NCBI GenBank assembly: GCA_000245075.1
Contig: JH599964.1
Location: 1 to 45,256, forward strand
Direction of reading: 5' to 3'
Length of the DNA: 45,256 nt
Source: Acetobacteraceae bacterium AT-5844
GTDB lineage: Bacteria > Pseudomonadota > Alphaproteobacteria > Acetobacterales > Acetobacteraceae
Shown here: positions 13,838-33,517 of the stretch, in pieces
Position numbering within the stretch: the first letter of the stretch is position 1
How the letters are laid out: each line of letters opens with the position of its first letter
Made by a program: the position numbers and the translations under genes
The notes under the pieces: generated by a model
What the model saw: the letters and a program-made list of their open reading frames with translations, nothing else
Told to the model about the DNA's origin: nothing
Database searches by the model: none

Positions 13838-13841
<4 letters not shown>

Positions 13842-16356: not shown

Positions 16357-16366
16357 GGTCGGCCTC

Positions 16367-18321: not shown

Positions 18322-18346
18322 GTTTCAATTCTAAAAACGCTGTTTC
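18322..18346 (-). promoter_or_regulatory. Operator-like 25-bp element, copy A
   Basis: On the minus strand this reads GAAAC-AGC-GTTTT-TAGAATT-GAAAC. It matches copies B (25292) and C (33493) at 19 and 18 of 25 positions. It sits between the divergent acyl-CoA dehydrogenase operon and the binding-protein operon, 15 bp from the former's ATG. Confidence 0.75.
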
Positions 18347-18434
18347 ATATTTTCCGAGGGCTTCCGGCCCTGTCAATGGTGGGGCATAAGCCGCGTATCA
18401 AACATTTTCCATTCGCTGAAATGGAGTATTAACG

Positions 18435-20033
18435 ATGCGTCGTCGTGATTTCGGAAGGCTGGCTGCGGCGGCGGGGATGACCGGCCTGATGCCGATGCGA
18501 TGGGCGCAGGCGCAAACACGCGCCGAAAGCCTGCGGGTGCTCAGCGAGGCGGGGCCCAACAGCTTCGATTCCATCGGCCTCGGCGTGAATCGCAACGCCA
18601 TCCAGCTGCACTGGAACACTTACGACCGCCTGCTGCGCTTCGGCACGCAGACCCGGCCGGACGGCACGCTCTATTACGACTACTATACCATCGAGGGCGA
18701 GCTGGCCGAACGCTTCGAGGTCTCCGAGGACAAGAAGACCATCACGCTGCATCTGCGCCGGGATGCCACCTTCCATGATGGCTCGCCCGTGACGGCCGAG
18801 GATGTGAAGTGGTCGCTGGACCGGGTACTCGCCATTCCCGTCGGCAAGTCGCAGTTCAGCACCGGTTCGCTGACGAGCCCGGACCAGTTCGTGGTGGTGG
18901 ACCAGCACACGGTGCGTGTCACCACGCCGCAGCCGGACCGCTTCACCCTGCCGAACCTGGCGGGCACCTATCCCACCATCTTCAATTCCAGGCTGGCGAA
19001 ATCCCATGCCACGGCGTCCGACCCCTGGGCGACGGAATGGCTGAAGACCAATGTGGCGGGCGGTGGTGCCTTCCGGCTTGAGAACCATGTGCCCGGCCAG
19101 AGCCTGACGCTCTCCCGCTTCGACAATTGGAAAAGTGGCACGCTGCCTGGCTTCCGCCGCGTGCTGTGGCAGATGGTGCCCAATGCCCAGTCCCGCCGCA
19201 GCTCGCTGGAGCGGGGGGACGCGGATATCGTCCAGGACCTGCCGCCGCAGGATGCCGTTTCCATCGCGCAGGCGGGCAAGGTGAAGGTGGTGGGCGTGCC
19301 GATGGCGGGCGCCTTCCAGTTCATCGGCATGAACAGCGCCAAGCCGCCCTTCGACAATGTGAAGGTGCGCCAGGCCATCGCCTACGCGCTACCTTACCAG
19401 CAGATGTTCGAGGCTGCCCTGTTCAAGCGCGGCCAGCCCCTGTTCGGTGGCACGCCGAACGAGGCGGATGGCACGGCGTTTCCGCAACCGCTGGGCTACA
19501 GCACGGATCTCGAAAAGGCGCGCGCCCTGCTCGCCGAAGCCGGGCACGCCAATGGCTTCGACACGACCTTCAGCTTTGAGCTTTCCCTTGCCACGGTGGC
19601 GGAGCCGGTCTCCCTGCTGGTGCAGGAGGCGCTGGGCAAGATCGGCATCCGAGTGACGATCGAGAAGGTGCCGGGGGGGCAGCTCGGCACGCGGCTGCAG
19701 AACAAGGAGGTGCCGTTCTTCTTCGAGGCCTCGGCATCCTATTTCTCGGACCCGGACTACTTCTTCCGCATCTTCTACCATGGCCCGACGCGTTGGAATT
19801 TCGGCAGCTACAACAACCCGGAGTTCCAGGCGCTGGTGGACAAGACCCGCTACGAGACGGACAAGGCCGTCTATGATGCAGATGTAAAGCGGATGATCGC
19901 CCTGGCGAAGCAGGACATTCCGATCATCCTGCTGTGGCAGCCGGCGCTGGATACGGGAATGCAGCAATCCGTCAGCGGATATAAGTACCTCTTCCATCGC
20001 CAGCTTGAGCTGCGCACCCTGAAGCGCGGCTGA
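18435..20033 (+). CDS. ABC transporter substrate-binding protein, family 5
   Basis: A 532-residue periplasmic binding protein heading a complete ABC importer operon. The N-terminus MRRRDFGRLAAAAG carries a twin-arginine motif, followed by a hydrophobic stretch ending WAQAQ. Family marks include LHLRRDATFHDGSPVTAEDVKWSLDR (written here in part: RRDATFHDGSPVTAEDV), FDNVKVRQAIAYALPYQQM and a DPDYFFRIFYHG region. Family 5 proteins take up di/oligopeptides, opines, nickel and other amine-containing solutes. GGAG precedes the start. Operon position next to CoA-pathway genes suggests it captures the substrate of that pathway. Confidence 0.93.
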   Translation: MRRRDFGRLAAAAGMTGLMPMRWAQAQTRAESLRVLSEAGPNSFDSIGLGVNRNAIQLHWNTYDRLLRFGTQTRPDGTLYYDYYTIEGELAERFEVSEDKKTITLHLRRDATFHDGSPVTAEDVKWSLDRVLAIPVGKSQFSTGSLTSPDQFVVVDQHTVRVTTPQPDRFTLPNLAGTYPTIFNSRLAKSHATASDPWATEWLKTNVAGGGAFRLENHVPGQSLTLSRFDNWKSGTLPGFRRVLWQMVPNAQSRRSSLERGDADIVQDLPPQDAVSIAQAGKVKVVGVPMAGAFQFIGMNSAKPPFDNVKVRQAIAYALPYQQMFEAALFKRGQPLFGGTPNEADGTAFPQPLGYSTDLEKARALLAEAGHANGFDTTFSFELSLATVAEPVSLLVQEALGKIGIRVTIEKVPGGQLGTRLQNKEVPFFFEASASYFSDPDYFFRIFYHGPTRWNFGSYNNPEFQALVDKTRYETDKAVYDADVKRMIALAKQDIPIILLWQPALDTGMQQSVSGYKYLFHRQLELRTLKRG

Positions 20034-20041
20034 GCCCCGGC

Positions 20042-21061
20042 ATGGCGTTCCTGCTCCGGCGCCTGCTGGGTGTTGTGCCGACCTTGTTCGGGGTCGTCGT
20101 CGCGGCCTTCGTGCTGACGCGGCTGTTGCCTGGCGATCCGGCAGTGTTCTTCGCCAATAGCGTGACGGCCGATGCCGCCACCATCGAGGCGGTGCGGCAG
20201 AAGCTGGGGCTGGACCTGCCGCTCTGGCAGCAATTCCTGATCTATACGGGGCAGTTGCTGAGAGGCGACCTTGGCAACTCCATCGGCAGCGGGCAGCCCG
20301 TGGCGGTGGACCTGCTGCGGCTTCTACCGGCCTCCGCCGAGTTGACGCTGGTGGCTTTCGCGCTGGCGGTGCTGGTTGCGGTGCCGCTCGGCATCGCCGC
20401 CGCGTTGCGCCCGGGCTCGATCATCGACCATGCATGCCGCCTTCTCAGCACGGCGGGGGTTTCCTTGCCCACCTTCGTCACGGGCCTGCTGCTGATCTAT
20501 ATCTTCTACTACCAGCTGGGCACGGCGCCGGAGCCGATCGGCCGGATCGACCCTTTCGCCATTCCGCCGCCCGCCGTCACCGGCTTCCTGCTGATCGACA
20601 CGCTGCTGGCCGGAGACAGTGAGGGCTTCGTTGCAGCCGCCCGGCAGATCGTGCTGCCGGCGGTGACGATGGCGCTGTTCGCCCTCGCGCCGCTGGCGCG
20701 AATGACCCGCGCCTCCATGCTCGGCGTACTGGGCAGCGAGTTCATTCGCACCGCGCGCGCGAACGGACTGCGGCGGCGGAAGATCATCTTTTCCTATGCG
20801 CTGCGAAATGCCCTTCTGCCGATCGTGACCACGCTGGGCATGGTCTTCTCCAACATGCTCGGGGCCAATGTCCTGGTGGAGCGTGTGTTTGCCTGGCCGG
20901 GCGTGGGGTCCTATGCGCTCGACTCTCTCATCGCGCTGGATTACGCGCCGGTCCAGGGCTTCATGCTGCTGATGGCGACGATCTTCGTGCTGGTGAACCT
21001 CGTCATCGACCTTGCCTATGCGGTGATCGACCCGCGCACGGGGCTGTTCCAGCATGCGTGA
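20042..21061 (+). CDS. ABC permease, DppB/OppB type
   Basis: A 339-residue inner-membrane permease with about six hydrophobic segments, starting LLRRLLGVVPTLFGVVVAAF. The cytoplasmic EAA loop that contacts the ATPase is visible as RTARANGLRRRKIIFSYALR. The C-terminus DLAYAVIDPRTGL is standard for DppB-type proteins. It lies 8 bp after the binding protein and overlaps the next permease by 8 bp. It forms the translocation channel with that partner. Confidence 0.94.
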   Translation: MAFLLRRLLGVVPTLFGVVVAAFVLTRLLPGDPAVFFANSVTADAATIEAVRQKLGLDLPLWQQFLIYTGQLLRGDLGNSIGSGQPVAVDLLRLLPASAELTLVAFALAVLVAVPLGIAAALRPGSIIDHACRLLSTAGVSLPTFVTGLLLIYIFYYQLGTAPEPIGRIDPFAIPPPAVTGFLLIDTLLAGDSEGFVAAARQIVLPAVTMALFALAPLARMTRASMLGVLGSEFIRTARANGLRRRKIIFSYALRNALLPIVTTLGMVFSNMLGANVLVERVFAWPGVGSYALDSLIALDYAPVQGFMLLMATIFVLVNLVIDLAYAVIDPRTGLFQHA

Positions 21062-21899
21062 GAAGCTCTCTCTGCTGCGCTACGTCCTGGCCGGGAATCC
21101 GGTGACGCTGCTCGCGCTGGTGATGCTGGCGGTGCTGCTTGGCTGTGCCGTGCTGGGCCCGTCCCTGGTGCCGTATGATCCCATCGCCACCAATACATCG
21201 GTGGCCTTGCAGGCGCCCTCCGCCGCGCATTGGTTTGGCACGGACCAACTGGGACGGGACGTGTTCTCCCGCGTCGTCGTCGCGGCGCGGCTGGATCTGT
21301 CCATCGCCTTTGCGGCCGTGCTGCTGTCCATGGCGATTGGGTCGGTGCTCGGTGCCGCCATGGGATATTTTCGGGGCTGGCTGGACACGGCGGCAAGCCG
21401 CGCGACCGACGTGCTGATGGCCTTCCCGCTTTTCGTGCTGGCCATGGCCATGGTGGCGGCGCTGGGCAATTCCGTCTCCTCCGTCGTCTATGCGACGGCG
21501 GTGATCAACCTGCCTTTCTACATCCGCCTCGCGCGTGCCGAGACCAGTATCCGGCGGGACATGGGCTATATCGAGGCCGCCCGCGTCGGCGGCTCCGGCC
21601 ATGCGCGCATCCTGCGGGTGTTCCTGCTGCCCAATATCCTGCCGTCACTGGTCGTGCAGGCCTCGGTCAATCTCGGCTGGGCGGTGCTGAACACGGCGGG
21701 CCTGTCCTTTATCGGCCTGGGCGTGCGGGCGCCGACGCCTGAATGGGGAATCATGGTGGCGGAGGGCGCGCAGTTCATCGTCTCCGGCCGCTGGTGGATC
21801 GCGGCCTTTCCTGGTGCCGCGCTGATGCTGGCTGTCTTCTGCTTCAACCTGCTGGGCGATGGGCTGCGGGACATCGTCGATCCCCGGAGCCGCACGTGA
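21054..21899 (+). CDS. ABC permease, DppC/OppC type
   Basis: A 281-residue partner permease. It shows the DppC-type N-terminal segment before the first periplasmic region, HWFGTDQLGRDVFSRVV, the EAA loop GYIEAARVGGSGHARILRVF and the family ending NLLGDGLRDIVDPRSRT. About six membrane segments. Its stop overlaps the ATPase start as GTGA. Confidence 0.94.
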   Translation: MREKLSLLRYVLAGNPVTLLALVMLAVLLGCAVLGPSLVPYDPIATNTSVALQAPSAAHWFGTDQLGRDVFSRVVVAARLDLSIAFAAVLLSMAIGSVLGAAMGYFRGWLDTAASRATDVLMAFPLFVLAMAMVAALGNSVSSVVYATAVINLPFYIRLARAETSIRRDMGYIEAARVGGSGHARILRVFLLPNILPSLVVQASVNLGWAVLNTAGLSFIGLGVRAPTPEWGIMVAEGAQFIVSGRWWIAAFPGAALMLAVFCFNLLGDGLRDIVDPRSRT

Positions 21900-23584
21900 G
21901 CGACGCCTTGCTGTCGGTGCGCGACCTCTCGGTCGAGTTCCGCACCCGTTCGGGCATCGTGCCTGCTTTGCGCGGTGTTTCTTTCGAGGTTGCGCCGGGC
22001 GAGATGCTGGGCATCGTGGGGGAGAGTGGCTCCGGCAAGTCGGTGACGGCCTATTCCGTGCTGGGGCTGCTGGAGGCTTCCGCACGCGTCACAGGCGGGC
22101 AGGCGATCTTCGGCGGGCGGGATGTGCTGCGGCTGGGGCAGGCGGCGCTGAACGAGCTGCGCGGGGCGGAGATGTCCATCGTCTTCCAGAACCCGCGCAC
22201 CGCCCTGAATCCCATCCGCCCGGTGGGCGCGCAGATCGCCGACGTCATCGCGCGGCACGACCCGGCGCCGCCCGCCGTTATTCGCGAGCGGGTGCTGGAG
22301 GCGTTGCGGCAGATGCGCATCGCGGAGCCGGAGCGGCGGGCCTCGGCCTATCCCTTCGAGCTCTCGGGCGGCATGTGCCAGCGCATCGGCATCGCCATGG
22401 CACTGGCCTGCGCGCCGCGCCTGCTGATTGCCGATGAGCCGACCACGGGGCTGGATGTCACCACCCAGGCGGCGGTGATGGACCTGTTCCGGGATGCGGT
22501 GCGCGCGCGTGGCGTGGGCTCCATCCTCATCACCCACGATCTCGCCCTGGCATCGCAGTACTGCGACCGCATCGTGGTGATGCAGACGGGTAAGGTGGTT
22601 GAAGATGCCCCGGTCAGTGAGATCTTCGCGCGGCCGCGCCATCCCTATACCCAGCGCCTGCTGCGCAGCACGCCGTCCTCGGTGGACCGGATCGAAGATC
22701 TGGTGCCGGAGGAGGAGCCGGTTGCGCCGGCGCCGCCCCGTGCGCCCACCAGCGGCCCGCCGGTGCTGGAAGTGCGCGGGCTGCGCAAGAGTTATGCGCT
22801 CTCCCGCCCCGGCCTGTTTTGGTGGCGGCGGAATACGGAGCGGTTGCAGGCTGTTGGTGGTGTGGGGCTGGCCATCCAGCCTGGTGAAGCCGTGGGGCTG
22901 GTGGGGGAGTCGGGCTGCGGCAAGTCCACGCTGTCGCGCATGATCTGCCGCCTGATCCAGCCGGATGAGGGCGAGGTACTGCTGGATGGCGAGCCGATTC
23001 ACCGCATCGCGCCCGGGCGTTTTGCGCGCATGCCGCAGCGACGGCAGATCCAGATGGTGTTCCAGGACCCGACGGAAAGCCTGAACCCGCGCTTCAGCGT
23101 GTTCGATGCCATTGCCGATCCGGTGAAGCAGCTTATGCCGCGCGAGGGCACCGCCTTGCTGCGCCAGCGGGTAGAGCGGGCGGCGGCGCAGGTGGGGTTG
23201 CCGCTGGCATTGCTGCCGCGCTACCCGCACCAGCTTTCCGGCGGCCAGAAGGCGCGCGTGGGCATCGCCCGCGCCATGGCGGTGGAACCTCGCCTGCTGG
23301 TACTGGACGAGCCGACCAGCGCGCTCGATGTCTCCGTCCAGGCCGTGGTGCTGAAGCTGCTGACGCGGCTGCGGCGGCAGGAGGGAGTGGCGCAGTTGTT
23401 CGTCAGCCACGACCTGAACGTCGTGCGGCTGCTCTGCGACCGCATTCTGGTGATGCATAAGGGCCAGGTGGTGGAAAGCGGTCCGGCCGAGCAGGTGTTC
23501 AACAACCCGGCGCATGATTACACGCGCAGCCTGCTGGCCGCCATTCCGCGCCTTCCCATGCCGCAGGAGGCGGGCACCCTATGA
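21896..23584 (+). CDS. Fused dipeptide-type ABC ATPase (DppD-DppF in one chain)
   Basis: A 562-residue protein holding two complete nucleotide-binding domains. Domain 1: Walker A GESGSGKS, Q-loop in MSIVFQNPRTALNP, signature LSGGMCQR, Walker B LLIADEPTTGLDV. Domain 2: Walker A GESGCGKST, Q-loop MVFQDPTESLNPRF, signature LSGGQKAR, Walker B LLVLDEPTSALDV. A proline-rich linker (EEEPVAPAPPRAP) joins them, and each domain ends with the oligopeptide-type extension (HPYTQRLL; HDYTRSLLAAIP). In many relatives the two are separate genes. The GTG start gives a GTGA overlap with the permease; a frame open further upstream lies inside that gene. Confidence 0.93.
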   Translation: MSDALLSVRDLSVEFRTRSGIVPALRGVSFEVAPGEMLGIVGESGSGKSVTAYSVLGLLEASARVTGGQAIFGGRDVLRLGQAALNELRGAEMSIVFQNPRTALNPIRPVGAQIADVIARHDPAPPAVIRERVLEALRQMRIAEPERRASAYPFELSGGMCQRIGIAMALACAPRLLIADEPTTGLDVTTQAAVMDLFRDAVRARGVGSILITHDLALASQYCDRIVVMQTGKVVEDAPVSEIFARPRHPYTQRLLRSTPSSVDRIEDLVPEEEPVAPAPPRAPTSGPPVLEVRGLRKSYALSRPGLFWWRRNTERLQAVGGVGLAIQPGEAVGLVGESGCGKSTLSRMICRLIQPDEGEVLLDGEPIHRIAPGRFARMPQRRQIQMVFQDPTESLNPRFSVFDAIADPVKQLMPREGTALLRQRVERAAAQVGLPLALLPRYPHQLSGGQKARVGIARAMAVEPRLLVLDEPTSALDVSVQAVVLKLLTRLRRQEGVAQLFVSHDLNVVRLLCDRILVMHKGQVVESGPAEQVFNNPAHDYTRSLLAAIPRLPMPQEAGTL

Positions 23585-24033
23585 GCGAACAGATCTGGTT
23601 CGAGGATTTCGAGCCCGGGAGGGTGCTGGAAAGCCCGCCGCGCCGCATCACGGTGGAGGATATCGACCGGTACGCGGCGCTGACGGGCGAGGATCACCCC
23701 GTCCATATGGATGAGGAATTTGCCCGGGCTGCCGGCTTCCGGGGGCGGATCGCGCATGGGTTGTTCGCCCTCGCGCTGGTGGAGGGGCTGAAGGCGCGGA
23801 TGGGCGGGTTCGACCGTAGCGTCATCGCTTCCCTCGGTTGGGACAAGGTGCGCTTCCTGGCACCGCTGGAGCCGGGGGATGAAGTGCGGCTGCGGCTGGA
23901 ACTGGTGGAGAAGCGGCCGAGCTCCAAGCCCGGGCGCGGCGTGGCCACGGAGCGCGGCTCTCTGGTGAAGGCGGATGGCACCGTGGTGGTGACGGGGGAC
24001 CACGCCATCATCCTGTTGAACCGGCCAGGCTGA
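23581..24033 (+). CDS. MaoC-like (R)-specific enoyl-CoA hydratase
   Basis: A 150-residue single hotdog-fold protein. The hydratase motif TGEDHPVHMDEEFARAAGF supplies the Asp/His pair of this family, followed by GRIAHGLFALAL. It lacks the exact GDxNPxH form seen in the paralogue at 32592, but D-H-P-x-H variants are common in MaoC dehydratases. The start overlaps the ATPase stop by 4 bp, so an enzyme is built directly into the transport operon. It probably hydrates an unsaturated acyl-CoA of the pathway. Confidence 0.88.
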   Translation: MSEQIWFEDFEPGRVLESPPRRITVEDIDRYAALTGEDHPVHMDEEFARAAGFRGRIAHGLFALALVEGLKARMGGFDRSVIASLGWDKVRFLAPLEPGDEVRLRLELVEKRPSSKPGRGVATERGSLVKADGTVVVTGDHAIILLNRPG

Positions 24034-24110
24034 TGCTGTCCTGCTGGACATCGCGGCTGGCAGGCTCGACCTTGCCCATCGTGGACACATGACGGAAGGC
24101 GGGAACGGGA

Positions 24111-24491
24111 ATGACCGAGCGTGAACAGGTGCTGGCCGTGGTGCAGGGTTACTTCGACGCGCTGTACAATGGCAGCGTGGAGGGGTTCCGCGCCATCTTC
24201 CACCCCCAGGCACAGCTTTTCACGGCCGAGGGTGGCAACGAGGCGGCGCTGGATTTCGAGAGCTATATGCAGCGCGTGGCGGGCCGTGTCGCTCCCGCTT
24301 CCCGCAATGACCAGCGCTTCGATGAGGTGGTGAGCGCCACCATCGCCAGCCCGACCACGGCGCATGTGCGGGTGAAGGATGCCCTGGCGCCCAACCATTT
24401 CGTGGATGAGTTGCTGCTGGTGAAGTTCGCCGATGGCTGGAAGATCGTCTGCAAGGCCTATGCCTACAACAATGCGGCGCGTGCGGGATGA
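24111..24491 (+). CDS. NTF2-like protein (SnoaL/lumazine-binding-type)
   Basis: A 126-residue alpha+beta cone protein: helix EQVLAVVQGYFDALYNGSVEGF, then FHPQAQLF, and a closing sheet with DELLLVKFADGWKIVCKAY. Such proteins are small isomerases, hydrolases or simple ligand-binding proteins; no catalytic set can be named here. GGAAGG and GGGA lie before the start. It overlaps the following crotonase by 4 bp, so it is made together with the pathway enzymes. Confidence 0.75.
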   Translation: MTEREQVLAVVQGYFDALYNGSVEGFRAIFHPQAQLFTAEGGNEAALDFESYMQRVAGRVAPASRNDQRFDEVVSATIASPTTAHVRVKDALAPNHFVDELLLVKFADGWKIVCKAYAYNNAARAG

Positions 24492-25264
24492 TCCGCACCA
24501 AGGTCGTCGAGGAGAGGATTTTCGTCATCACGATGGATCGCCCGCCGGCGAATGCCATCGACCAGGTGATGAGCGACGGCCTCGATGCGGCCTTCACCCG
24601 GTTCGAGACGGATCCCTCGCTGCTGGTGTGCATTATCACCGGCGGTGGGGAGCGATTCTTCTCGGCGGGGTGGGATCTGAAGGAGGTCGCTGCCGGACGG
24701 GATGACGAAAACGGCTTCGGCAGCGGTGGCTATATGGGCCTCACCGAACGGTGGGGGTTGGTGAAGCCCGTGATCGCGGCGGTGAATGGCACCGCTGGCG
24801 GCGGCGGCTTTGAGCTGGCCTTGGCTTGCGATCTGGTCGTGGCGGCGGAAGGCGCGCGCTTCGTGCTGCCGGAAGTGCGCCATGGGCTGGTGGCGGAAGG
24901 CGGAGGGGCAATCCGCGCCCCGCGTCGCCTGCCGCCGATGCTGGCCATGGAATTGCTGCTCACGGGCCGCCCTGCCACCAGCGATGAACTGCACCGCCAC
25001 GGCTTCGTCAATCGTGTCGTGCCTGCCGGGCAGGTGTTGGAGGCGGCGCTGGAACTGGCGCGCGCCATCTGCGCCGCGGCGCCGACATCCGTGGCGGCAA
25101 CGAAGGAAATCGTGCAGCGCACATCGCACCTCCCGGTGCGGGAGGCCTATGCCGAGATGCGCCATGGCGACCTTCCGGCGTATCGGCGCATGAGGGCCTC
25201 TCCCAACCGCGTGGAGGGGCCGCGCGCCTTCATCGAGAAGCGGCCTCCACGCTGGACAGGCTGA
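24488..25264 (+). CDS. Enoyl-CoA hydratase/isomerase, CaiD-like
   Basis: A 258-residue crotonase. The oxyanion-hole regions are FSAGWDLKEV and NGTAGGGGFELAL; both conserved glutamates are present (GGGGFEL and VLPEVRHG). The end GPRAFIEKRPPRWTG parallels the crotonase at 16367, so the two are probably paralogues working on related intermediates. It is the last gene of the plus-strand transport operon; 70 bp follow before the ligase, containing the operator-like element. Confidence 0.92.
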   Translation: MIRTKVVEERIFVITMDRPPANAIDQVMSDGLDAAFTRFETDPSLLVCIITGGGERFFSAGWDLKEVAAGRDDENGFGSGGYMGLTERWGLVKPVIAAVNGTAGGGGFELALACDLVVAAEGARFVLPEVRHGLVAEGGGAIRAPRRLPPMLAMELLLTGRPATSDELHRHGFVNRVVPAGQVLEAALELARAICAAAPTSVAATKEIVQRTSHLPVREAYAEMRHGDLPAYRRMRASPNRVEGPRAFIEKRPPRWTG

Positions 25265-25291
25265 GGCCGGGCCGCGATACTGGCTCAATCT

Positions 25292-25316
25292 GAAACCGCG
25301 TTTCTATATCAGAAAC
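25292..25316 (+). promoter_or_regulatory. Operator-like 25-bp element, copy B
   Basis: Reads GAAAC-CGC-GTTTC-TATATCA-GAAAC and is the most symmetrical of the three copies (GTTTCT-N5-AGAAAC). It ends 18 bp before the ligase ATG. TATATC inside it resembles a -10 box, so binding there could block RNA polymerase. Confidence 0.75.
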
Positions 25317-25334
25317 ACGTAAGAGGGCCTTCGC

Positions 25335-27002
25335 ATGACGCAGCAGTCGGAACCGCCCTTCTGGCCGGCCGGCGTGCCGCAGCATGTCGGGGCCATGCCG
25401 CGTAATCTGGGTGAGGCCTTGCGGCTGTCGGCAGCGCGGCGGCCGCACCATACGGCGCTGGTTTTTTATGGCGCCGAGCTGAGCTTCGCGGAACTGCTGG
25501 CGCGGGTGGAGCGGCTGGCGGGCTTCCTGCAGCATCGCTGTGGCCTGCGGAAGGGTGACCGGGTACTGCTGGACATGCAGAACTCGCCGCATTTCGTCAC
25601 CGCCTTCCAGGCGATCGTCCGGGCCGGCGGCGTGGTGGTCCCGGTAAATCCCATGAACATGGCTGCCGAGCTGGCCTATCTCTGCCAGGACAGCGGTGCA
25701 CGCATTGCCCTGGTGGGTGCGGAACTGCTGGACCGGTTCGCGGGATTGATGCCGGCGCCGCTGGAGCATGTCGTCATTGCCAGCTACGCCGATGAGCTGC
25801 CGCAGCCGCCGCTCTTCCGGCTGCCGCCCGTGATGGCGGAGAGCGTGCTGCCGCCTGTTCTGCCGCCGGGTGGCATTGCCTGGGCCGAGGCGCTGGCGGA
25901 GACGCGGGCGCCGCGCCCGGATGACGCCACGCAGGATGACCTCTGCGTCATGCCCTACACGTCCGGCACTACGGGCAAGCCGAAGGCCTGTGCGCATACT
26001 CATGCCAGTACGCTGTTCACCGCCATCGCGCAGGCCGCCTGGTACCGTTATGACGATGATACGGTGGTGACCGGCTTCATGCCGATGTTTCATGTCGCCG
26101 GCATGCAGGTTTCCATGAATGGGTGTGTCGTATCCGGCGCCACGGTCGTCATCATGGCGCGTTGGGACAGGGATCTGATCTCGCCGCTGTTCACGCGTTA
26201 TGGCGTGACAATCTGGAGCGCGGCGCCGACCATGGTCGTCGATGTGCTCGCCTCGCCGAATTTCGACGAACGTGCCTTCTCGAAGCTGCGCGTGCTGACG
26301 GGAGGCGGCTCCACCATGCCTACAGCGGTGGCCGAAAAGCTGGAACGCCGCTGGGGACTGAAATTTGTGGAAGGCTATGGTCTCAGCGAGACCATTGCTG
26401 CGACACACCTGAACCCGCCGGAGCGGCCAAAGCCGCAATGCATGGGCATCACCATCCAGAATACCGTCTCACGCATCATCGACCCGGAGACCCTGGAAGA
26501 GTTGCCGGCAGGGGAGGTGGGTGAGATCATCATCGCCGGACCGCAGGTCATGCGTGGATACTGGAACCGCCCGGAAACCGATAGCGAGGCATTTATCCAT
26601 CGCGATGGTCTTCGCTTCCTTCGCACCGGCGATCTCGGACGCGTGGACGAGGAAGGGTATTTCTACACCGTCGACCGGCTGAAGCGAATGATCAGTGTCA
26701 GCGGCTACAAGGTCTGGCCCGCCGAGTGCGAGGCGACGCTCTATCATCATCCGGCCATTCAGGAATGCTGCGTCATCTCCGCACCGGATTCCTACAGGGG
26801 CGAGACGGTGAAGGCCTTCGTCGTGCTGCGGCCCGGAGAGAAGCTGGATGCAGCCGGGCTCATGGAATGGGCGCGTGGCGTGATGGCCGCGTACAAGGTG
26901 CCACGGCTGGTGGAATTCGTGGAAAGCCTGCCGCGCTCCGGCAGCAACAAGATCGACTGGCGCTCGTTGCAGGTGGCGGAGTGGGGGAAGGCCGGGGTCT
27001 GA
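25335..27002 (+). CDS. Acyl-CoA synthetase (AMP-forming ligase)
   Basis: A 555-residue ANL-superfamily enzyme that activates a carboxylic acid to its CoA ester via an acyl-adenylate. Motifs: YTSGTTGKPKACAHTH (ATP loop, about residues 207-222), VEGYGLSETIAATH, RTGDLGRVDEEGYFYTVDRL with the hinge, and the catalytic lysine region SGSNKIDWRS near the C-terminus. It resembles CaiC and long/medium-chain ligases. AGAGGG precedes the ATG. It is monocistronic by position, with its own operator-like element and a bidirectional terminator at its end. It would make the first intermediate for the acyl-CoA dehydrogenases. Confidence 0.93.
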   Translation: MTQQSEPPFWPAGVPQHVGAMPRNLGEALRLSAARRPHHTALVFYGAELSFAELLARVERLAGFLQHRCGLRKGDRVLLDMQNSPHFVTAFQAIVRAGGVVVPVNPMNMAAELAYLCQDSGARIALVGAELLDRFAGLMPAPLEHVVIASYADELPQPPLFRLPPVMAESVLPPVLPPGGIAWAEALAETRAPRPDDATQDDLCVMPYTSGTTGKPKACAHTHASTLFTAIAQAAWYRYDDDTVVTGFMPMFHVAGMQVSMNGCVVSGATVVIMARWDRDLISPLFTRYGVTIWSAAPTMVVDVLASPNFDERAFSKLRVLTGGGSTMPTAVAEKLERRWGLKFVEGYGLSETIAATHLNPPERPKPQCMGITIQNTVSRIIDPETLEELPAGEVGEIIIAGPQVMRGYWNRPETDSEAFIHRDGLRFLRTGDLGRVDEEGYFYTVDRLKRMISVSGYKVWPAECEATLYHHPAIQECCVISAPDSYRGETVKAFVVLRPGEKLDAAGLMEWARGVMAAYKVPRLVEFVESLPRSGSNKIDWRSLQVAEWGKAGV

Positions 27003-27014
27003 GTACCCCGGCCT
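26989..27014. terminator. Bidirectional terminator hairpin
   Basis: AGGCCGGGGT and ACCCCGGCCT form a perfect 10-bp stem with a 6-nt loop, covering the ligase stop codon, between convergent genes. Confidence 0.65.
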
Positions 27015-27023
27015 CACGCCGCC

Positions 27024-27962
27024 TCAGAAAGCGGTCTGGTCGCCGCCCTTCAAGCCCAGGATCTCACGTGCCTCATCCGGCGTCGCGATCTCCATGGACA
27101 GGCTCTCCAGGATGCCGCGGATGATGCGCACCTGCTCGGCGTTGCTGGTGGCCAGCTTGCCCTTGCCGGCATAGAGGCTGTCCTCCATGCCCACGCGCAC
27201 ATTGCCGCCCATGGTCGCCGCCATGGTGGCCATGTTCAGCTGGTGACGGCCGCCGGCGAGGACGGACCAGCGGTAATTGTCGCCGAACAGCTTGTCGGCG
27301 GTCTTCTTCATGAAGACGAGATTCTCCGGATCCGCGCCGATGCCGCCGAGCGTACCGACAATGAGCTGCACGAACATCGGCAGCTTGACGAGCCCACGAT
27401 CCAGCATGTGCGCGAGATTGTAGAGGTGGCCGACATCATAGCACTCGAACTCGAAGCGCGTGCCGTTTGCGCCGAGCTTGTCCAGAATGGTCTCGATATC
27501 CGCGAAGGTGTTGCGGAAGATCGCGCCGCGGCTGGCCTCCAGGTAATCCTCTTCCCAGTCGTGCTTCCACTTGCCCTTGTATTTCGGGATCATGGGATAG
27601 GAGCCGAAATTCATCGAGCCCATGTTGCAGGAGCACAGCTCCGGCTTGGCGGCGAGCGGCGCGGCCAGGCGGTCCTCGATGCTCATGAAAGTGCTGCCGC
27701 CGGTTGTCATGTTCAGCACGGCATTGGTGCGCTGCTTCAGGCCACGCAGGATGTGGAACCAGGTATCGAGGTCGCCCGTCGGCTTCTCGGTCTTCTCGTC
27801 CCGCGCATGCAGATGGAGAATGGCGGCACCGGCCTCCGCTGCCTCGGCCGCCTGCTCGATGATGGCGCTCGGCGTCACCGGCAGGTAGGGCGACATGGTG
27901 GGGGTGTGGGAGGCGCCGGTGATGGCGCAGGTGATGATAACCTTCTGGGACTTCGCCATCAT
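27024..27962 (-). CDS. Beta-keto acid cleavage enzyme (BKACE, formerly DUF849)
   Basis: A 312-residue TIM-barrel zinc enzyme. BKACE proteins condense a beta-keto acid with acetyl-CoA and release acetoacetate plus a new acyl-CoA. The N-terminal ITCAITGASHTPTMSPYLP, the zinc pair HLHARD (His50, His52) and the later zinc glutamate in VRVGMEDSLY identify the family; LVGTLGGIG-type sequence (here QLIVGTLGGIGADPEN) is also characteristic. The keto-acid specificity cannot be read by eye. Last gene of the minus-strand operon, starting 2 bp after the SDR stop, which would supply its beta-keto acid. Confidence 0.92.
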   Translation of the reverse strand: MMAKSQKVIITCAITGASHTPTMSPYLPVTPSAIIEQAAEAAEAGAAILHLHARDEKTEKPTGDLDTWFHILRGLKQRTNAVLNMTTGGSTFMSIEDRLAAPLAAKPELCSCNMGSMNFGSYPMIPKYKGKWKHDWEEDYLEASRGAIFRNTFADIETILDKLGANGTRFEFECYDVGHLYNLAHMLDRGLVKLPMFVQLIVGTLGGIGADPENLVFMKKTADKLFGDNYRWSVLAGGRHQLNMATMAATMGGNVRVGMEDSLYAGKGKLATSNAEQVRIIRGILESLSMEIATPDEAREILGLKGGDQTAF

Positions 27963-27964
27963 TC

Positions 27965-28747
27965 TTACTCCGTATATTCCAGGCCACCGCAGATGCTCAT
28001 CACCTGCCCGGTGATGGCGCGCGCCGCGGGCGAGCAGAGATAGAGCGCCAGTTCCGCGATTTCCTCGGGCTCTACAGCGGTTTTCAGGGAGACGGCGCGC
28101 AGCGCGATCTGCTCCATCTCCTCATAGGTGATGCCCTTGGTGGCGGCGCGGTCGGTGAAGACGCGGCGGATACGCTCGCCATTCACCACGCCGGGCGTGA
28201 TCGCGTTGACGCGGATCTTGTGGGGGCCAAGCTCGACGGAGAGGCCGCGCGCGAAGGAGATCACCGCCGCCTTGCTGCTGGCATAGGGCGAGCGCAGCGG
28301 GAAAGCGAACTTCCCCGCCACGGACGCCATGCAGACCATGGAGCCCCAGCCATTCTTCTTCAGATGCGGCACCGTGGCGCGGGCGACGAAGAACTGGCCA
28401 TTGACGTTGATGGCATGGGTGCGAACCCAATCCTCGGTCGAGATATCCTCGACGGGCGCGGCAGGCCCGGCGATGCCGGCATTGTTGATGACGAAATCCA
28501 GCCCGCCCATGGCCTCGACAGCGGCGGCAACGAAGGCATCCACCTGCGCAGGGTCGGAAACATCGCAATGCATGGTGCCAAGGCCCGGCAGGCTGGCGGC
28601 GGCCTCGGCCAGCTTGTCGTCAGCGACGTCGCAGATCCAGACCTGGGCGCCCTTGTCGAGAAAAGCCTTCGCCATGGCAAGGCCGATGCCGGCAGCGCCG
28701 GCCGTGATGAGGACGCGCTTCCGCGCCCAGTAGTCCTGCTCGGTCAT
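27965..28747 (-). CDS. SDR-family oxidoreductase
   Basis: A 260-residue short-chain dehydrogenase. The cofactor loop is ITAGAAGIGLA (TAG instead of the usual TG), NNAG in FVINNAGIAG, catalytic Ser in CMASVAG and Tyr-x3-Lys in YASSKAAV. The most likely job, given the following BKACE gene, is oxidising a 3-hydroxy acid or 3-hydroxyacyl-CoA to the keto form; this is inference. I use ATG 28747 (MTEQDYWARKRVLIT), since upstream sequence in the frame overlaps the CoA-transferase gene and looks non-coding. A 37-bp gap precedes it. Confidence 0.9.
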   Translation of the reverse strand: MTEQDYWARKRVLITAGAAGIGLAMAKAFLDKGAQVWICDVADDKLAEAAASLPGLGTMHCDVSDPAQVDAFVAAAVEAMGGLDFVINNAGIAGPAAPVEDISTEDWVRTHAINVNGQFFVARATVPHLKKNGWGSMVCMASVAGKFAFPLRSPYASSKAAVISFARGLSVELGPHKIRVNAITPGVVNGERIRRVFTDRAATKGITYEEMEQIALRAVSLKTAVEPEEIAELALYLCSPAARAITGQVMSICGGLEYTE

Positions 28748-28784
28748 GGTGGACCTTGTGTTGGAAGAGACCGTGAGGAACGCG

Positions 28785-29501
28785 TCAGATGGCGAATTCC
28801 TCGGCGAAACGGGGGTAGACCTCGGCGACTTCGCCGCGGACGAGATCGCGGATCTCGGCGCGCAGCGTGGCGTCCGGCTGCGGCGTGGTGGGAACCTTGT
28901 CGGGCTCCGCGTAATCGAAGCCGGTAGCCGCGCGGATGCTCTCCGCGCTCTCGCCGGGATGCACACTGCGCAGCGCGAAGCGGCGTTCATCCTTGCGCCA
29001 GTCGAACAGGCATTTTCCCGTCACCAGCGCCTGCGGGCCGCCGGGGCGATAGACTTCCGGCTCGCTCCAGCCGGGCGCACTGATGAAATCCACCTTCGGT
29101 ACCAGCGCGCGCGGGTCGTGCTCTGGACGGAACAGGATGACGCGCGGCACCAGCATGTAGAGATAGGGCGAGCCGAAGGAGCCGGAGAAGCGAACCTTGG
29201 GCCGTTCGTAATCGCCGATGCTCAGCAGGTTGATATTCGCCTCGCCGTCGATCTGCGCACCGGAGAGGAAGAAGACATCGATGCGGCCCTGTGCCGCGCT
29301 GTCGAACAGCTCTTTCGCGCCGTTGGTGAAGCGGCTGTTGCGGCGGGAGCCCAGCACCGTCACGCGCATCTTTCCGCCCGAGCGCCGGCGCGCCAGCATG
29401 GCGGCTGCCATCGGGATCGGCGAGAGCGCGCCTGTCGCGACATGCCGCGCATCACCAATGAGCCCGGCAATGGCGTTGATGAGCAGGGCGGCGTCCATCA
29501 C
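28785..29501 (-). CDS. CoA-transferase-fold protein, subunit B (IpdB/GctB-like)
   Basis: A 238-residue family I CoA-transferase-fold subunit, paired with the gene upstream. Recognisable parts are GDARHVATGALSPIPMAAAML near residues 16-35, GRIDVFFLSGAQIDGEANIN and the RFALRSVHPGESAESI-type C-terminal segment. True transferases carry a covalent glutamate in an 'ESG/ENG' strand of the B subunit; here the equivalent strand reads VTVLGSRRNS (about 47-56) without glutamate. That pattern recalls IpdB of actinobacterial sterol-ring degradation, where the pair acts as a ring-opening hydrolase. So it may be a hydrolase rather than a transferase. Confidence 0.82.
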   Translation of the reverse strand: MMDAALLINAIAGLIGDARHVATGALSPIPMAAAMLARRRSGGKMRVTVLGSRRNSRFTNGAKELFDSAAQGRIDVFFLSGAQIDGEANINLLSIGDYERPKVRFSGSFGSPYLYMLVPRVILFRPEHDPRALVPKVDFISAPGWSEPEVYRPGGPQALVTGKCLFDWRKDERRFALRSVHPGESAESIRAATGFDYAEPDKVPTTPQPDATLRAEIRDLVRGEVAEVYPRFAEEFAI

Positions 29502-30268
29502 ACGGTCTCCATGAACAGCGCACCCTTGGCGTAGCGGGCCTGCGCCTCGGCATCCGGCGCATATTCCTCATCGACACCCAGCGGCCAGGCGCCGCGTTCC
29601 GCGACGGCGATGGCGGTGACGTAGAGAGAGGGCAATACCCCGGCCACGATCTCCTCCCGGTCGAAGAAGCAGGTGTCGAGCACGCGCTCCACCGTCACCA
29701 GTGTTTGGCGAGAGGCGTGCGCCATCACCGTCAGCTCCTGCCGGCGGCCGACCCAGATATTGCCTTCCCGGTCTGCGGCGGCGGCGTGGAACAGGGCGAA
29801 ATCCGGGTTGATCGCGGGCAGCAGCACGATGGGATCCGGCTGCTCGGAGAAGGGGTTCTGGATGGTCTTCCAATCCGTGCGGTGCCGTAGCACGTCGCTG
29901 CCGATCAGCCCGCGCAGGGGAATGAAGGGCAGGCCCTTCTCGGCGGCATTCAACTGGGCATGCAGCGCAGGGCAGGTGGAATCCAGCATGCGAATGGTGC
30001 CGTTGCGCACGGCGGCGTTGAAGGCGGGCGCGGTGCCGAACTCGCCCAGGGTGACGGCGGCGGCCTCCATGGTGCACACGCAGCCAGCGGCGATCAGCAG
30101 ATCCGCCTGGATTCCAGAGGAAGGGGCGGCGACGAGATGCAAATCCTTCACCCCGCGCTCCGCCAGGGCGCGCGTGGCGGCCACGGCCACGCCGCTATAG
30201 TCCGGCGGCACCACCAGCTTGGCACCATTGAAAATGCGGGCGACCAGCTCTTGCAGGCTTTCGATCAT
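29498..30268 (-). CDS. CoA-transferase-fold protein, subunit A (IpdA/GctA-like)
   Basis: A 256-residue partner subunit. Family marks are ALAERGVKDLHLVAAPSSG, ADLLIAAGCV, the LGEFGTAPAFNAAVRNGTI segment (Glu76) and NPDFALFHAAAADREGNIW. The glutamate in GEFG is a candidate for the active-site acid that IpdA is reported to provide; this assignment is my alignment by eye. It overlaps both neighbours by 4 bp (molybdoenzyme stop upstream, subunit B start downstream), so the two subunits are made together. Confidence 0.82.
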   Translation of the reverse strand: MIESLQELVARIFNGAKLVVPPDYSGVAVAATRALAERGVKDLHLVAAPSSGIQADLLIAAGCVCTMEAAAVTLGEFGTAPAFNAAVRNGTIRMLDSTCPALHAQLNAAEKGLPFIPLRGLIGSDVLRHRTDWKTIQNPFSEQPDPIVLLPAINPDFALFHAAAADREGNIWVGRRQELTVMAHASRQTLVTVERVLDTCFFDREEIVAGVLPSLYVTAIAVAERGAWPLGVDEEYAPDAEAQARYAKGALFMETV

Positions 30269-32586
30269 GCGCGCGGCTCCAGGATCTTCGGCGGCGTGAA
30301 GGCGTGAAGCGGTGGTGGCGGGGCCGTGAAGGGCTCCACCTGCACCAGGGCCGTGTGGGCCACCGGTGCCTGGGAAAGGGCGGAGGTGCCGATATCCAGG
30401 GTCAGCGTATTGGCGTTGCCGTGGCGGTCCAGCCCATCCTCATCCGGGTCCCACCAGGCGCCGGTGGCCAGTTGCACGACGCCAGGCATCACCGCCTCGC
30501 TGAGCACGGCGCCAGCCAGACAGGAACCCCGGTCGTTGAACAGCCGCACCAGCATACCGTCGGTAATGCCACGCTCCGCGGCATCCTGGGGGTGCAGCAG
30601 CACCGGCTCGCGGTCCGCCACCTTGGAGCCGCGGCTGACACTGCCATGGTCGTACTGGCTGTGGAGCCGCGTGCGAGGCTGATTGGAGATGAGATGCAGC
30701 GGAAAGCGCGGGGCGCCGAGCCATTCCGCCGGCTCCAGCCAAACGGGGTGGCCGGGACAGTCCGCATAGCCGAAGCCGGCGATGGCTTCGGAAAAGATCT
30801 CGATGCGACCTGAGGGGGTTTCGAGCGGTGCGGCAACGGGGTCTTCGCGGAAGGCCTGCAACAGGCTGATGTTCTGCGGCGCCTGCGGCAGGCGGATGTG
30901 GCCATCCCGCCAGAAGCTCTCGAAGTCCGGCAGGTCCAGCTCATGCGCGGCGGCACGCTGGCGGGCCAGGGCGTAGAGATGCCGCACCCAGCCCATCTCA
31001 TCCCGGCCATCGGTGAAGGCCTCGCCCTTGCCAAGAGCCTCGGCAATGCCTGCCAGAATGTCGAAATCGCTGCGGGCCTCGCCCACCGGCTCGACGATCT
31101 GACGCATGGCGAAGAGATGCGCCTCTCCCGTGGCGATGCCGAGGTCGTTGCGCTCTGCCGAGGTGGTGCAAGGAAGAACGATGTCCGCATGCTTGGCCAG
31201 GGCGTTCCACCAGGGCTCATGCACCACTACCGTCTCCGGCTTCTTCCAGGCAGCGGCAAGCTTGTTCAGGTCCTGCTGATGGTGGAAAGGGTTGCCACCG
31301 GTCCAGTAGACGAGGCGGATATCGGGATAGTTCCGCCTTTGCCCGTCATAGTCGAAAGGCTCGCCGGGATGCAGCAGCATATCCGCCACCCGCGCGACGG
31401 GGATGAAATCCCGTACCGGGTTGCGCCCTTGCGGCAGCGCGGGCCAGGAGAAGCCATGCGGCGCGTGGCCGATGCGGTTGCTGCCACCATAGCCAAAGCC
31501 GAAGCCGCCGCCCGGCAGGCCGATCTGTCCCAGCATGGCGGCCAGCGCGATGGCTGCCCAAAGCGGCTGCTCTCCATGATCCGCGCGCTGCAGGGACCAG
31601 GCGACGGCGATCATCGTCCGGGTGGCCGCCATGCGCCGCGCCAGGGCGCGGATGTTCTCTGGCTCCACGGCGCAAATGCGCGCGGCCCAGTCGGCATCCT
31701 TGGGCTGGCCGTCGGACTCGCCCGTCAGGAAGGGCAGGAAGCGCTCGAAGCCGGTGGTGTAGCGGTCGAGGAAGGCGCGGTCATGCAGCCCTTCCGCCCA
31801 GAGCGTATGGGCCAGGGCCAGCATCATCGCCGTGTCGGTATTGGGGCGGGGGGCGATCCACTCCGCATTCAGCTCGGCCATGGCATCGTCGCGCAGCGGG
31901 CCGATATTGACGAAATCCATGCCCGCCGCACGGCAACGGCGCAGATGGGCGCCGACATCATGGTGGCCGACACCGCCTGCCGAGACCTGGGTGTTCTTGA
32001 TCGGCATGCCGCCGAACATCACCATCAGCTTCGTGTGGCGCTCCAGCACGGGCCAGGGCGTGTGGCGGCCAATCAGCCCGTCCTGGCTGCCGATGATGTG
32101 CGGCAGCAGCACTTCCGCCGCCGCGTAGCTGTGGGTGTTCACCGAGTAGGTGTAGCCGCCGCAGGTGTTCAGGAAGCGGTGCAGCTGGCTCTGCGCATGG
32201 TGGAAGCGCCCGGCACTGGCCCAGCCATAGGAGCCGCCGAAGATGGCGCTGTTGCCATGCTGCGCCACAACGCGGCTGATTTCGCCGGCGACCAGCGCCG
32301 TAGCCGTCTCCCAGGAGACCGGCACGAAGGCGTCCCGCCCGCGCTGGTCACGGCTTGTTGGGCCATGCTCCAGCCAGCCCGCGCGCACCATGGGTTGGCG
32401 GATACGCATGGCATCGTCCAGCACGCCGGGGATGGACTGGCCGATCGGAGAGGGGGAGGGGTCGCCCTCAAGGCCTTCCAGAGCCTGCAGCCGTCCATTC
32501 TCCACCGTGGCGCGGTAGGCGCCCCAGTGGGTGAACAGGAGGGGCGCCGCCGGCCCTGACTCTATGGTCCCTGTCTCCGCGGGCAT
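30265..32586 (-). CDS. Molybdopterin oxidoreductase, BisC/TorA/DMSO-reductase type
   Basis: A 773-residue bis-MGD molybdoenzyme. The type is set by SYGWASAGRFHHAQSQLHRFL followed by VNTHSYAAAEVLLPHIIG, where Ser153 matches the serine ligand of molybdenum in TorA/DorA/BisC. No CxxC iron-sulfur motif is present at the N-terminus, also as in that group. There is no Tat signal, so it is probably cytoplasmic like BisC (biotin/methionine sulfoxide reductase). Later marks include GGLPGGGFGFGYGGSN-like and ISNQPRTRLHSQYDHGSVS. It would reduce an S-oxide or N-oxide, or run in reverse. It sits inside a CoA-pathway operon, overlapping subunit A by 4 bp; no dedicated redox partner is nearby. Confidence 0.9.
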   Translation of the reverse strand: MPAETGTIESGPAAPLLFTHWGAYRATVENGRLQALEGLEGDPSPSPIGQSIPGVLDDAMRIRQPMVRAGWLEHGPTSRDQRGRDAFVPVSWETATALVAGEISRVVAQHGNSAIFGGSYGWASAGRFHHAQSQLHRFLNTCGGYTYSVNTHSYAAAEVLLPHIIGSQDGLIGRHTPWPVLERHTKLMVMFGGMPIKNTQVSAGGVGHHDVGAHLRRCRAAGMDFVNIGPLRDDAMAELNAEWIAPRPNTDTAMMLALAHTLWAEGLHDRAFLDRYTTGFERFLPFLTGESDGQPKDADWAARICAVEPENIRALARRMAATRTMIAVAWSLQRADHGEQPLWAAIALAAMLGQIGLPGGGFGFGYGGSNRIGHAPHGFSWPALPQGRNPVRDFIPVARVADMLLHPGEPFDYDGQRRNYPDIRLVYWTGGNPFHHQQDLNKLAAAWKKPETVVVHEPWWNALAKHADIVLPCTTSAERNDLGIATGEAHLFAMRQIVEPVGEARSDFDILAGIAEALGKGEAFTDGRDEMGWVRHLYALARQRAAAHELDLPDFESFWRDGHIRLPQAPQNISLLQAFREDPVAAPLETPSGRIEIFSEAIAGFGYADCPGHPVWLEPAEWLGAPRFPLHLISNQPRTRLHSQYDHGSVSRGSKVADREPVLLHPQDAAERGITDGMLVRLFNDRGSCLAGAVLSEAVMPGVVQLATGAWWDPDEDGLDRHGNANTLTLDIGTSALSQAPVAHTALVQVEPFTAPPPPLHAFTPPKILEPRA

Positions 32587-32591
32587 GGTGT

Positions 32592-33440
32592 TCAGCCTGC
32601 CAGTTCGGCCAGGCCATTATCCAGCACGATGGCCTCGCGCTCGGCGGCATGGGCGCGGAAGCAGATGGAACCGTCCCTGCGCCAAAAGGAGAAGGCCAGC
32701 GTCTCGCCTGGATAAAGCGGTCCCGCGAAGCGCGCCGCGAAGCGGCGCAGGCGCGTGGGGTCCTGCTCGCAGAACAGCCGCAGCACTTCAGCGCAGGCAA
32801 TGCCGAAGGTGCAGGCGCCATGCAGGATGGGACGGTCGAAACCCACCTGCCGCGCCAACTCCGGGTCCACATGCAGCGGGTTGCGGTCCCCCAACAGGCG
32901 GAACAGCAGCGCCTGGTTAGGGGCGGTGGGGGTGCTGGAGGTGGTCTGTGGTGGACCCTCCGGCATTTTCTGGGCCTTGACCTGTTCGCCGGCCGGTCCG
33001 CCGAAGCCCCCGGCCCCCCGCACGAAGATGGTGGAGAGAAGCGTGCAGGCCGGCCGGCCACCCTGGCTCAGCACGGTTTCCACGAACACCAGCCCGGCCT
33101 TGCCGGCACCCTTGTCATCCAGCCCGGTGATGCGAGCTTCGGTGAGCGCTTCGCCTTCCGGGGCCAGGGGGGCGTGGAAGTGCAGGTCCAGCGCCCCATG
33201 CACCACCTGCTTCAGGTCAATGCCTGCTGCATCCAGCCAGGAATCGTCGAAGGCCAGCATGGTCGCCATGCTGGGAACGATGCGCTGTGCCTTCTCCCAC
33301 ACGAAGGGCAGGTCGTCGGCCTCTCCTCCCGCAGCCATGCCGACCGTCAGCGCATAGAGCAGGCTGTCACGGCCGGCGTAAACGACGTTGCGCGGCGGTA
33401 TGGAGAGGGCCATGAGCCCCGTGGGATCAAGCGGCATCAT
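32592..33440 (-). CDS. Double-hotdog MaoC-family enoyl-CoA hydratase
   Basis: A 282-residue protein with an N-terminal MaoC-like half that binds but does not catalyse, and a C-terminal half with the full motif LLGDRNPLHVDPELARQVGF (GDxNPxH, about residues 182-201) followed by RPILHGACTFG. Such two-domain proteins hydrate 2-enoyl-CoAs, typically bulky ones. First gene of the minus-strand operon, 5 bp ahead of the molybdoenzyme gene; 146 bp separate it from the divergent IclR gene, including operator-like copy C. ATG 33440 and 33437 are adjacent alternatives. Confidence 0.9.
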   Translation of the reverse strand: MMPLDPTGLMALSIPPRNVVYAGRDSLLYALTVGMAAGGEADDLPFVWEKAQRIVPSMATMLAFDDSWLDAAGIDLKQVVHGALDLHFHAPLAPEGEALTEARITGLDDKGAGKAGLVFVETVLSQGGRPACTLLSTIFVRGAGGFGGPAGEQVKAQKMPEGPPQTTSSTPTAPNQALLFRLLGDRNPLHVDPELARQVGFDRPILHGACTFGIACAEVLRLFCEQDPTRLRRFAARFAGPLYPGETLAFSFWRRDGSICFRAHAAEREAIVLDNGLAELAG

Positions 33441-33492
33441 GCGGCCTTATGCGGTGACAGCAGGGGGAGCATGCAGCGATCCCATTCCATTT

Positions 33493-33517
33493 GCAACGCC
33501 GTTCCTATATTTGAAAC
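33493..33517 (+). promoter_or_regulatory. Operator-like 25-bp element, copy C
   Basis: Reads GCAAC-GCC-GTTCC-TATATTT-GAAAC, matching copy B at 19 of 25 positions and copy A at 18. It lies in the 146-bp region between the divergent maoC operon and iclR gene, suitable for autoregulation and joint control. Confidence 0.75.

Follow-up and report, generated by a model that had tools for sequence, protein, structure and literature searches.

A predicted IclR-family regulon with three-box operator-like elements in the Acetobacteraceae

Introduction

Binding sites of IclR-family regulators follow two motifs, group 1 (GKTYCRYW3-4RYGRAMC) and group 2 (TGRAACAN1-2TGTTYCA), and 32 predicted orthologous groups have three-box sites that join both, as set out in the main text of Suvorova and Gelfand (2021; PMC8222616). 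PcaU, PobR and HmgR are the experimental three-box cases cited there, the extra box of PcaU being required for binding, and three boxes are read as possible alternative dimerisation. Here we describe three 25-base-pair (bp) elements in a 45,256-nucleotide stretch of the genome of Acetobacteraceae bacterium AT-5844 (contig JH599964.1, positions 1 to 45,256; hereafter the window). They lie between an acyl-CoA dehydrogenase gene (ACAD1) and the divergent SBP_bac_5 gene (SBP5) of an ATP-binding cassette (ABC) transporter, before an acyl-CoA ligase gene, and between maoC, which belongs to a molybdoenzyme operon, and a divergent iclR gene. We consider it likely, from sequence comparison, that the three elements are operators of this one local IclR protein (33587-34333), which would bind them in the three-box manner and repress until a compound of the pathway releases it.

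Results

The elements and the proposed regulator are as follows.
18322..18346, minus strand: putative operator 1, three-box, GAAACAGCGTTTTTAGAATTGAAAC; between ACAD1 (minus strand) and SBP5 (plus strand)
25292..25316, plus strand: putative operator 2, three-box, GAAACCGCGTTTCTATATCAGAAAC; 18 bp before the ligase start codon
33493..33517, plus strand: putative operator 3, three-box, GCAACGCCGTTCCTATATTTGAAAC; between maoC (minus strand) and iclR (plus strand)
33587..34333, plus strand: IclR-family regulator of 248 amino acids, the proposed binder (HTH_IclR PF09339, 2.6e-16; IclR_C PF01614, 6.5e-34)

An earlier reading of the letters alone (the sequence-only reading) had reported these elements; its coordinates and sequences are correct, and so are, on recomputation, the pairwise identities (18, 19 and 19 of 25) and the 16 positions common to all three. 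The form that it gave, GAAAC-N3-GTTTC-N7-GAAAC, is exact at 25292 but has one mismatch in the 15-base core at 18322 and two at 33493. It had placed each element in the promoter region of one block of genes, and all three are indeed intergenic. Operator 1 faces ACAD1, with start codons at 15 bp (ACAD1) and 88 bp (SBP5), and operator 3 faces iclR, with iclR at 69 bp and maoC at 52 bp. Within the window, the core with up to three mismatches gave four matches versus 0.17 expected, a number reached in none of 100 shuffles; the fourth match (25280-25304) overlaps the 25292 site on the opposite strand. Simulated sequence (10 Mb) gave 0.009 core matches per window at two mismatches or fewer. The observation of three elements is confirmed.

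Their layout is that of the published motifs. The half-sites alternate in direction, one pair with the group 1 spacing (GTTYC-N7-GRAAC) and one with the group 2 spacing (GRAAC-N3/4-GTTYC), as described in the main text of PMC8222616, and PcaU and PobR of Acinetobacter baylyi and HmgR of Pseudomonas putida likewise have a palindrome with an external direct half-site. Because this architecture matches the PcaU/PobR/HmgR motif, we regard the elements as an instance of the published three-box type. The regulons described in that text resemble the present one also in self-regulation together with control of adjacent operons, and in site centres that lie mostly 20-80 bp before start codons.

We scanned the whole genome (5,190,553 bases) with the bare core, taking the reversed core pattern as a control. 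With up to three mismatches the core had 47 matches and the control 30; the places 25292 and 18322 were the two best, and 33493 was equalled by three other places with two mismatches, about one genome match at that level being expected from simulated sequence. With these counts and the tie at 33493, the bare core alone is a weak test, unspecific at three mismatches. These counts, and the fact that the motif is A/T-rich and was spotted by eye, are what could be said for the reading that A/T-rich stretches of a G+C-rich genome merely look alike by chance. We also built a sequence-only model, R1, from eight aligned sites of four other genera (genomes G005, G011, G050 and G522), namely two ligase and three iclR sites of Acetobacteraceae and three sites of G522, none coming from the window's genus. 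On the window genome at E ≤ 10, R1 returned exactly the three window sites (among the best 150 of 186 candidates), with E-values of 1.6e-5, 9.3e-4 and 2.0e-3. Many equally good matches elsewhere in the genome would, according to the sequence-only reading, be fatal to its proposal; R1 gave none, and with the bare core three places equal 33493, an outcome that does not refute it. On 20 other genomes at E ≤ 0.5, R1 matched three places each in G239, G005 and G011, two in G050 and four in G522, and among these it was bound to recover the eight sites used for training; the three matches outside the training set in G005, G011 and G050 lie between ACAD1 and SBP5, a region that had been unexamined beforehand. 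A matrix of the same eight sites scored 30.8-37.6 at the window sites and 13.5 at the next place in the window, and its maximum over 3 Mb of simulated sequence was 16.9.

The iclR gene has orthologs in five relatives, four within the Acetobacteraceae (G239, 88% identical; G005, 76%; G011, 70%; G050, 61%) and one in a different family (G522, 48%); G239 and the Pseudoroseomonas aerophila locus L021 (88%) were counted as one relative. Most cluster genes of the window are present in the DNA of these relatives, split over two contigs in G050. The gene order is altered in G522, where the molybdoenzyme and ligase, SBP5 and iclR, and ACAD1 and DppBCDF genes are divergent, and one site lies in each of these three rearranged intergenic regions. 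Operator 1 has orthologs in all five relatives, operator 2 in G239, G005 and G011 plus a weak one in G522, and operator 3 in G239, G005, G011 and G050, the G522 copy adjoining iclR. Conservation in orthologous promoters, as the sequence-only reading had anticipated, was found at 17 of 18 positions (three in each of six genomes from two families), with one site weak. The site-less position is that of the G050 ligase: its start codon and the stop codon of the ABC gene before it share bases (ATGA), so that the ligase can be transcribed with the ABC operon and share the site of that operon. Orientation toward ACAD1, the ligase and iclR is uniform over the 17 sites, and a site adjoins iclR in all six genomes, including the rearranged G522.

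We then counted invariant columns inside and outside the site in intergenic alignments built without the motif. They made up 20 of 25 columns in the site versus 25 of 121 outside for maoC/iclR (five genomes), 19 of 25 versus 41 of 103 for ACAD1/SBP5 (three genomes), and 12 of 25 versus 3 of 45 for the ligase (five genomes). In all three alignments no 25-base window has more invariant columns than the site block, which shares the highest count with others, the first tied window starting 1 (maoC/iclR), 9 (ACAD1/SBP5) and 2 (ligase) bases before the site. What we observe are the sites themselves, how they rank genome-wide, how well they are conserved and that they are placed before genes. Set against a held-out model, unseen matches at the expected place in three genera and conservation over two families, a chance resemblance is hardly credible.

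Over the 17 sites the three boxes carry 8.3, 7.2 and 8.9 bits (boxes 1, 2 and 3; summed by hand); since they are about equally conserved, box 1 is not accessory. Boxes 2 and 3 are separated by a TATATTT-like spacer, which differs from the RYW3RY of PMC8222616: its first base is T in 15 of 17 sites, where the group 1 consensus has R (position 14), so that the full group 1 spacer, a secondary feature that the three-box layout does not require, is absent, while the central A/T-rich part agrees.

A fourth, weak R1 match in G522 (E 0.08; L100 4607-4633, that is G522:C20:27606-27632, minus strand) ends at least 7 bases before the start codon of another SBP5/Dpp-type ABC operon (earliest start 4641); it may mark an additional member of the regulon or have arisen by chance.

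The protein encoded at 33587 has the IclR-family layout, with an N-terminal helix-turn-helix, a C-terminal effector domain and about 250 amino acids. Its best NCBIfam matches, KdgR (135.7 bits) and BhcR (135.5 bits), are level; the KdgR model NF011671 has a cut-off of 275, and the PcaR/PcaU/PobR model TIGR02431 gave 126.9 bits versus a cut-off of 284.75. Because it falls below the KdgR, BhcR and PcaR/PcaU cut-offs, we file it only as an IclR-family member. The KdgR motif in the PMC8222616 table, RWWGAAACGNCGTTTCAKKA, has GAAAC-N3-GTTTC with a C before GTTTC, as in 16 of our 17 sites, yet it has two boxes and the protein match is far below the cut-off; the boxes of PcaU are GTTCG-type, a further difference from that regulator. 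The stretch NKSTV[YH]RL[LV]DTL is common to the six motif-bearing IclR proteins. Judging by the fold, it is presumably the recognition helix.

Judging by protein matches, close relatives of this regulator are rare. With the window genome counted each time, we found them in at least 5 of 150 genomes (E 1e-40; one being the 36% protein of G108) and at least 5 of 397 genomes (E 1e-60) of the family, at least 2 of 385 genomes of the class (E 1e-55) and at least 2 of 299 genomes of the phylum (E 1e-45; the second being G1080, 38%). The family, class and phylum samples overlap, and candidates were partly scored for many genomes, so that relatives may be missed. Two of these proteins were tried as orthologs and treated as paralogs: that of G108 has no cluster in 5.5 kb and a best core match with 3 mismatches, and that of G1080 no cluster nearby and a best R1 match of E 3.56. 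Both have TKSNVHRLL where the six have the common stretch. Among remote IclR loci, L022 had no core match with up to four mismatches and L023 had two (3 and 4 mismatches).

As a comparison set we used 15 genomes that lack an ortholog, 13 of them from the window's genus and the others G143 and G078; with every candidate scored, none had an IclR match at E ≤ 1e-30. R1 at E ≤ 0.5 had no match in 11 of the 15, and in the other four it gave six weak matches (E 0.07-0.28), which is chance level; three of them lie in G293, with no relative of window genes within 3 kb. Three genomes of the window's genus keep the ABC operon without the IclR gene (G374, G269 and G348; SBP5 77, 74 and 64% identical, with DppB, DppC and DppDF adjoining it, and in G374 also a beta-keto acid cleavage enzyme (BKACE) at 91%). 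None of the three has an R1 match at E ≤ 0.5, nor a core match with up to four mismatches in 19.9, 12.2 and 19.9 kb around the ABC operon. Because these three operons lack the site, the site goes with the regulator and not with the ABC operon. In G006 the SBP5 ortholog (74%) stands alone in 19.9 kb, a remote IclR (34%) lies on a separate contig, and R1 has no match at E ≤ 5 (among the best 150 of 321 candidates). Two genomes with the molybdoenzyme, G143 (76%) and G078 (59%), had no R1 match at E ≤ 0.5 (among the best 150 of 256 and 150 of 177 candidates); in 39 kb of G143 there is no further cluster gene except distant ABC and ligase matches. At E ≤ 1e-150 the molybdoenzyme family has members in 171 of the 395 genomes searched in the order, and because it is common we did not use it as a marker.

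The assignment of the binder comes from sequence and the search for a regulator covered the window's own proteins, which leaves room for genuine sites bound by another regulator. This alternative is very unlikely: this iclR gene adjoins a site in all six genomes, even after rearrangement, it is the sole regulator present in all six among the 26 window proteins sought in relatives, and the ABC operons kept without it have no site. We therefore agree with the sequence-only reading that the IclR protein at 33587 is the probable binder, the layout of the sites being that of the IclR-family operators described in PMC8222616.

A short open frame of 19 codons, MPMLARNDPMNRLLSAQAA, lies between operator 3 and iclR (33522-33581, plus strand). 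Similar frames with in-frame length changes, ending QA(A)-stop just before iclR, occur in G239, G005 and G011, and none in G050 and G522; it is possibly a leader peptide.

Two putative promoters could be placed next to the sites.
18349..18376, minus strand: sigma-70-like promoter of the ACAD1 operon, TTGACA-16-GAAAAT, from a scan of the window; ends 2 bp before operator 1
25253..25281, plus strand: candidate promoter of the ligase, TGGACA-17-GATACT, lying upstream of operator 2

In all six genomes the ACAD1 operator is preceded at about the same distance by TTGACA, with an A/T-rich hexamer against box 1 (the other five by eye), and the operator begins 0-2 bases after this -10-like hexamer in all six (by scan in the window, by eye in the rest). 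The start point of ACAD1 would fall inside the operator, a repressor-like placement. At the ligase, the first hexamer falls within the last codons of the gene before it, and 18 bases in the window, or 6 in G005, separate the end of the operator from the start codon. A site over the core promoter and start fits the consensus promoter at ACAD1, and the placement is less clear at the ligase and at iclR/maoC.

The same IclR protein could be a PcaU-like activator with the pathway compound as co-activator. PcaU and PobR, both three-box regulators, are activators. In the maoC direction, TTGCAA-N17-CATGCT, seen by eye, overlaps box 1 in the window, G239 and G005 (TTGCAA/CATGGT in G011, TTGCAG/CATCCT in G050). 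This is a position that an activator can occupy, and activation at maoC is possible. We nevertheless consider general activation unlikely, as the maoC promoter was not reported by the scan and the positions of the ACAD1 and ligase operators given above both suit repression.

The genes that would come under the operators, identified from Pfam and NCBIfam profiles, and further genes noted beside them are as follows.
12840..18306, minus strand: presumed operon of ACAD1, enoyl-CoA hydratase, a second acyl-CoA dehydrogenase (ACAD2), D-hydantoinase/dihydropyrimidinase and CobW (same strand, overlapping or close frames)
18435..24033, plus strand: presumed operon of an SBP_bac_5/DppBCDF-type ABC transporter, the last gene encoding a small MaoC-domain protein
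24488..25264, plus strand: second enoyl-CoA hydratase, just before operator 2
25335..27002, plus strand: AMP-forming acyl-CoA ligase
27024..33440, minus strand: presumed operon of MaoC, BisC-family molybdoenzyme, two CoA-transferase-like subunits, short-chain dehydrogenase/reductase and BKACE
In relatives, extra SBP5-/Dpp-type genes: L030 17904-19000; L032 1-4785; L097 1-1984 with L034 18435-19901

The second enoyl-CoA hydratase likewise precedes the ligase in G239, G005 and G011, and is a possible member of the regulon. The extra SBP5-/Dpp-type genes of these three genomes separate the ABC operon from the ligase part of the cluster; no such gene was seen in the window at 24033-24488. The D-hydantoinase/dihydropyrimidinase scored 449.2 bits versus a cut-off of 393.25 and the BisC-family molybdoenzyme 992.2 bits, below its cut-off of 1017.55; a biotin-like substrate, suggested by this pair, is a guess. 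BKACE scored 523.8 bits with the model of 3,5-dioxohexanoate:acetyl-CoA acetone transferase, whose cut-off is 430, and in phloroglucinol degradation 3,5-dioxohexanoate is cleaved by an enzyme of the BKACE family (PMC10470551). The match recalls that pathway, the comparison with it covering the BKACE gene. The nearest PDB chains of the CoA-transferase-like pair (28785-30268, minus strand) belong to the glutaconate CoA-transferase family (5mzw, 1poi), with 6co6/6con also near. These relatives presumably include AibAB and the ring-opening IpdAB, and the pair may act on a C-C bond instead of moving CoA; it was not found in the G005 cluster stretch examined.

Discussion

Three elements that share one layout, stand out from the genome with a model trained on other genera and recur beside the same iclR gene in two families are best explained as operators of that regulator. 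Boxes 1 and 2 (GAAAC-N3-GTTTC) would serve as the group 2 palindrome and boxes 2 and 3 (GTTTC-N7-GAAAC) as the group 1 palindrome, and the IclR protein would bind the three boxes as two dimers or as a tetramer, the latter, suggested by the sequence-only reading, being plausible beside the alternative dimerisation considered in PMC8222616. Without its ligand it would block RNA polymerase at two places, the ACAD1 operon and the ligase; at both, the operator would coincide with the expected start point or follow it closely, and a pathway acid or CoA ester would release the protein. It would also control its own gene, the divergent maoC-molybdoenzyme operon and the ABC transporter.

Several points weigh against this explanation. 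The binding protein, repression, the ligand and the oligomeric state are what we infer. The training sites of R1 had been chosen via the core motif of the sequence-only reading. The G522 ligase site is weak, scoring 3.2 with its own genome left out, whereas the other 16 sites score 24.5-39.7, and the alignment with 19 of 25 invariant columns holds only the window, the near relative G239 and G522. In G374, G269 and G348 no ACAD1 gene was seen next to SBP5, so that their promoters are not strictly alike, and most other site-less genomes were compared by absence of the IclR protein, their clusters being only partly viewed. As to the sign of regulation, the second hexamer of the ligase promoter is not kept in G005 and the promoter scan at iclR/maoC gave nothing; repression is therefore best supported at ACAD1. 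A further comparison concerns PheR of Sphingobium sp. SHPJ-2, an IclR-family repressor with a footprint from +23 to -21 and the minimal motif GCAACG (PMC13273656). Of the six iclR-side sites, four begin with GCAACG and the other two with GCAACA and GCAACT, and the PheR footprint spans the start site; scored with the 17-site 25-bp matrix, however, the footprint as a whole did no better than shuffles, 413 of 2000 reaching its score.

A bolder version of the proposal, which we regard as improbable, is that one IclR protein uses alternative box pairs, repressing the ligase and ACAD1 operons while it activates the maoC-molybdoenzyme operon. It would in this way coordinate an undescribed route for a ureide or imide acid. 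A cyclic ureide-like or imide-like carboxylic acid would be imported, undergo S- or N-oxide reduction, be turned into its CoA ester and enter beta-oxidation; the hydantoinase would open the ring, and as the final step BKACE would act on a 3,5-dioxohexanoate-like acid.

Returning to operators of one local repressor as the preferred explanation, its layout is already published for the IclR family, and the regulon is newly predicted. The words Roseomonas and Acetobacter do not occur in the main text of PMC8222616, and in the open-licence literature we found no paper on this regulon, on Roseomonas IclR regulons or on an IclR protein with BKACE. We regard it as a sound regulon prediction from comparative evidence. 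About 21 kb of loosely related catabolic genes would thereby become one regulon that can be tested, with its regulator and operator named and with conservation across two bacterial families despite rearrangement, and its natural operators with uneven boxes would suit a test of the question of alternative dimerisation raised in PMC8222616.

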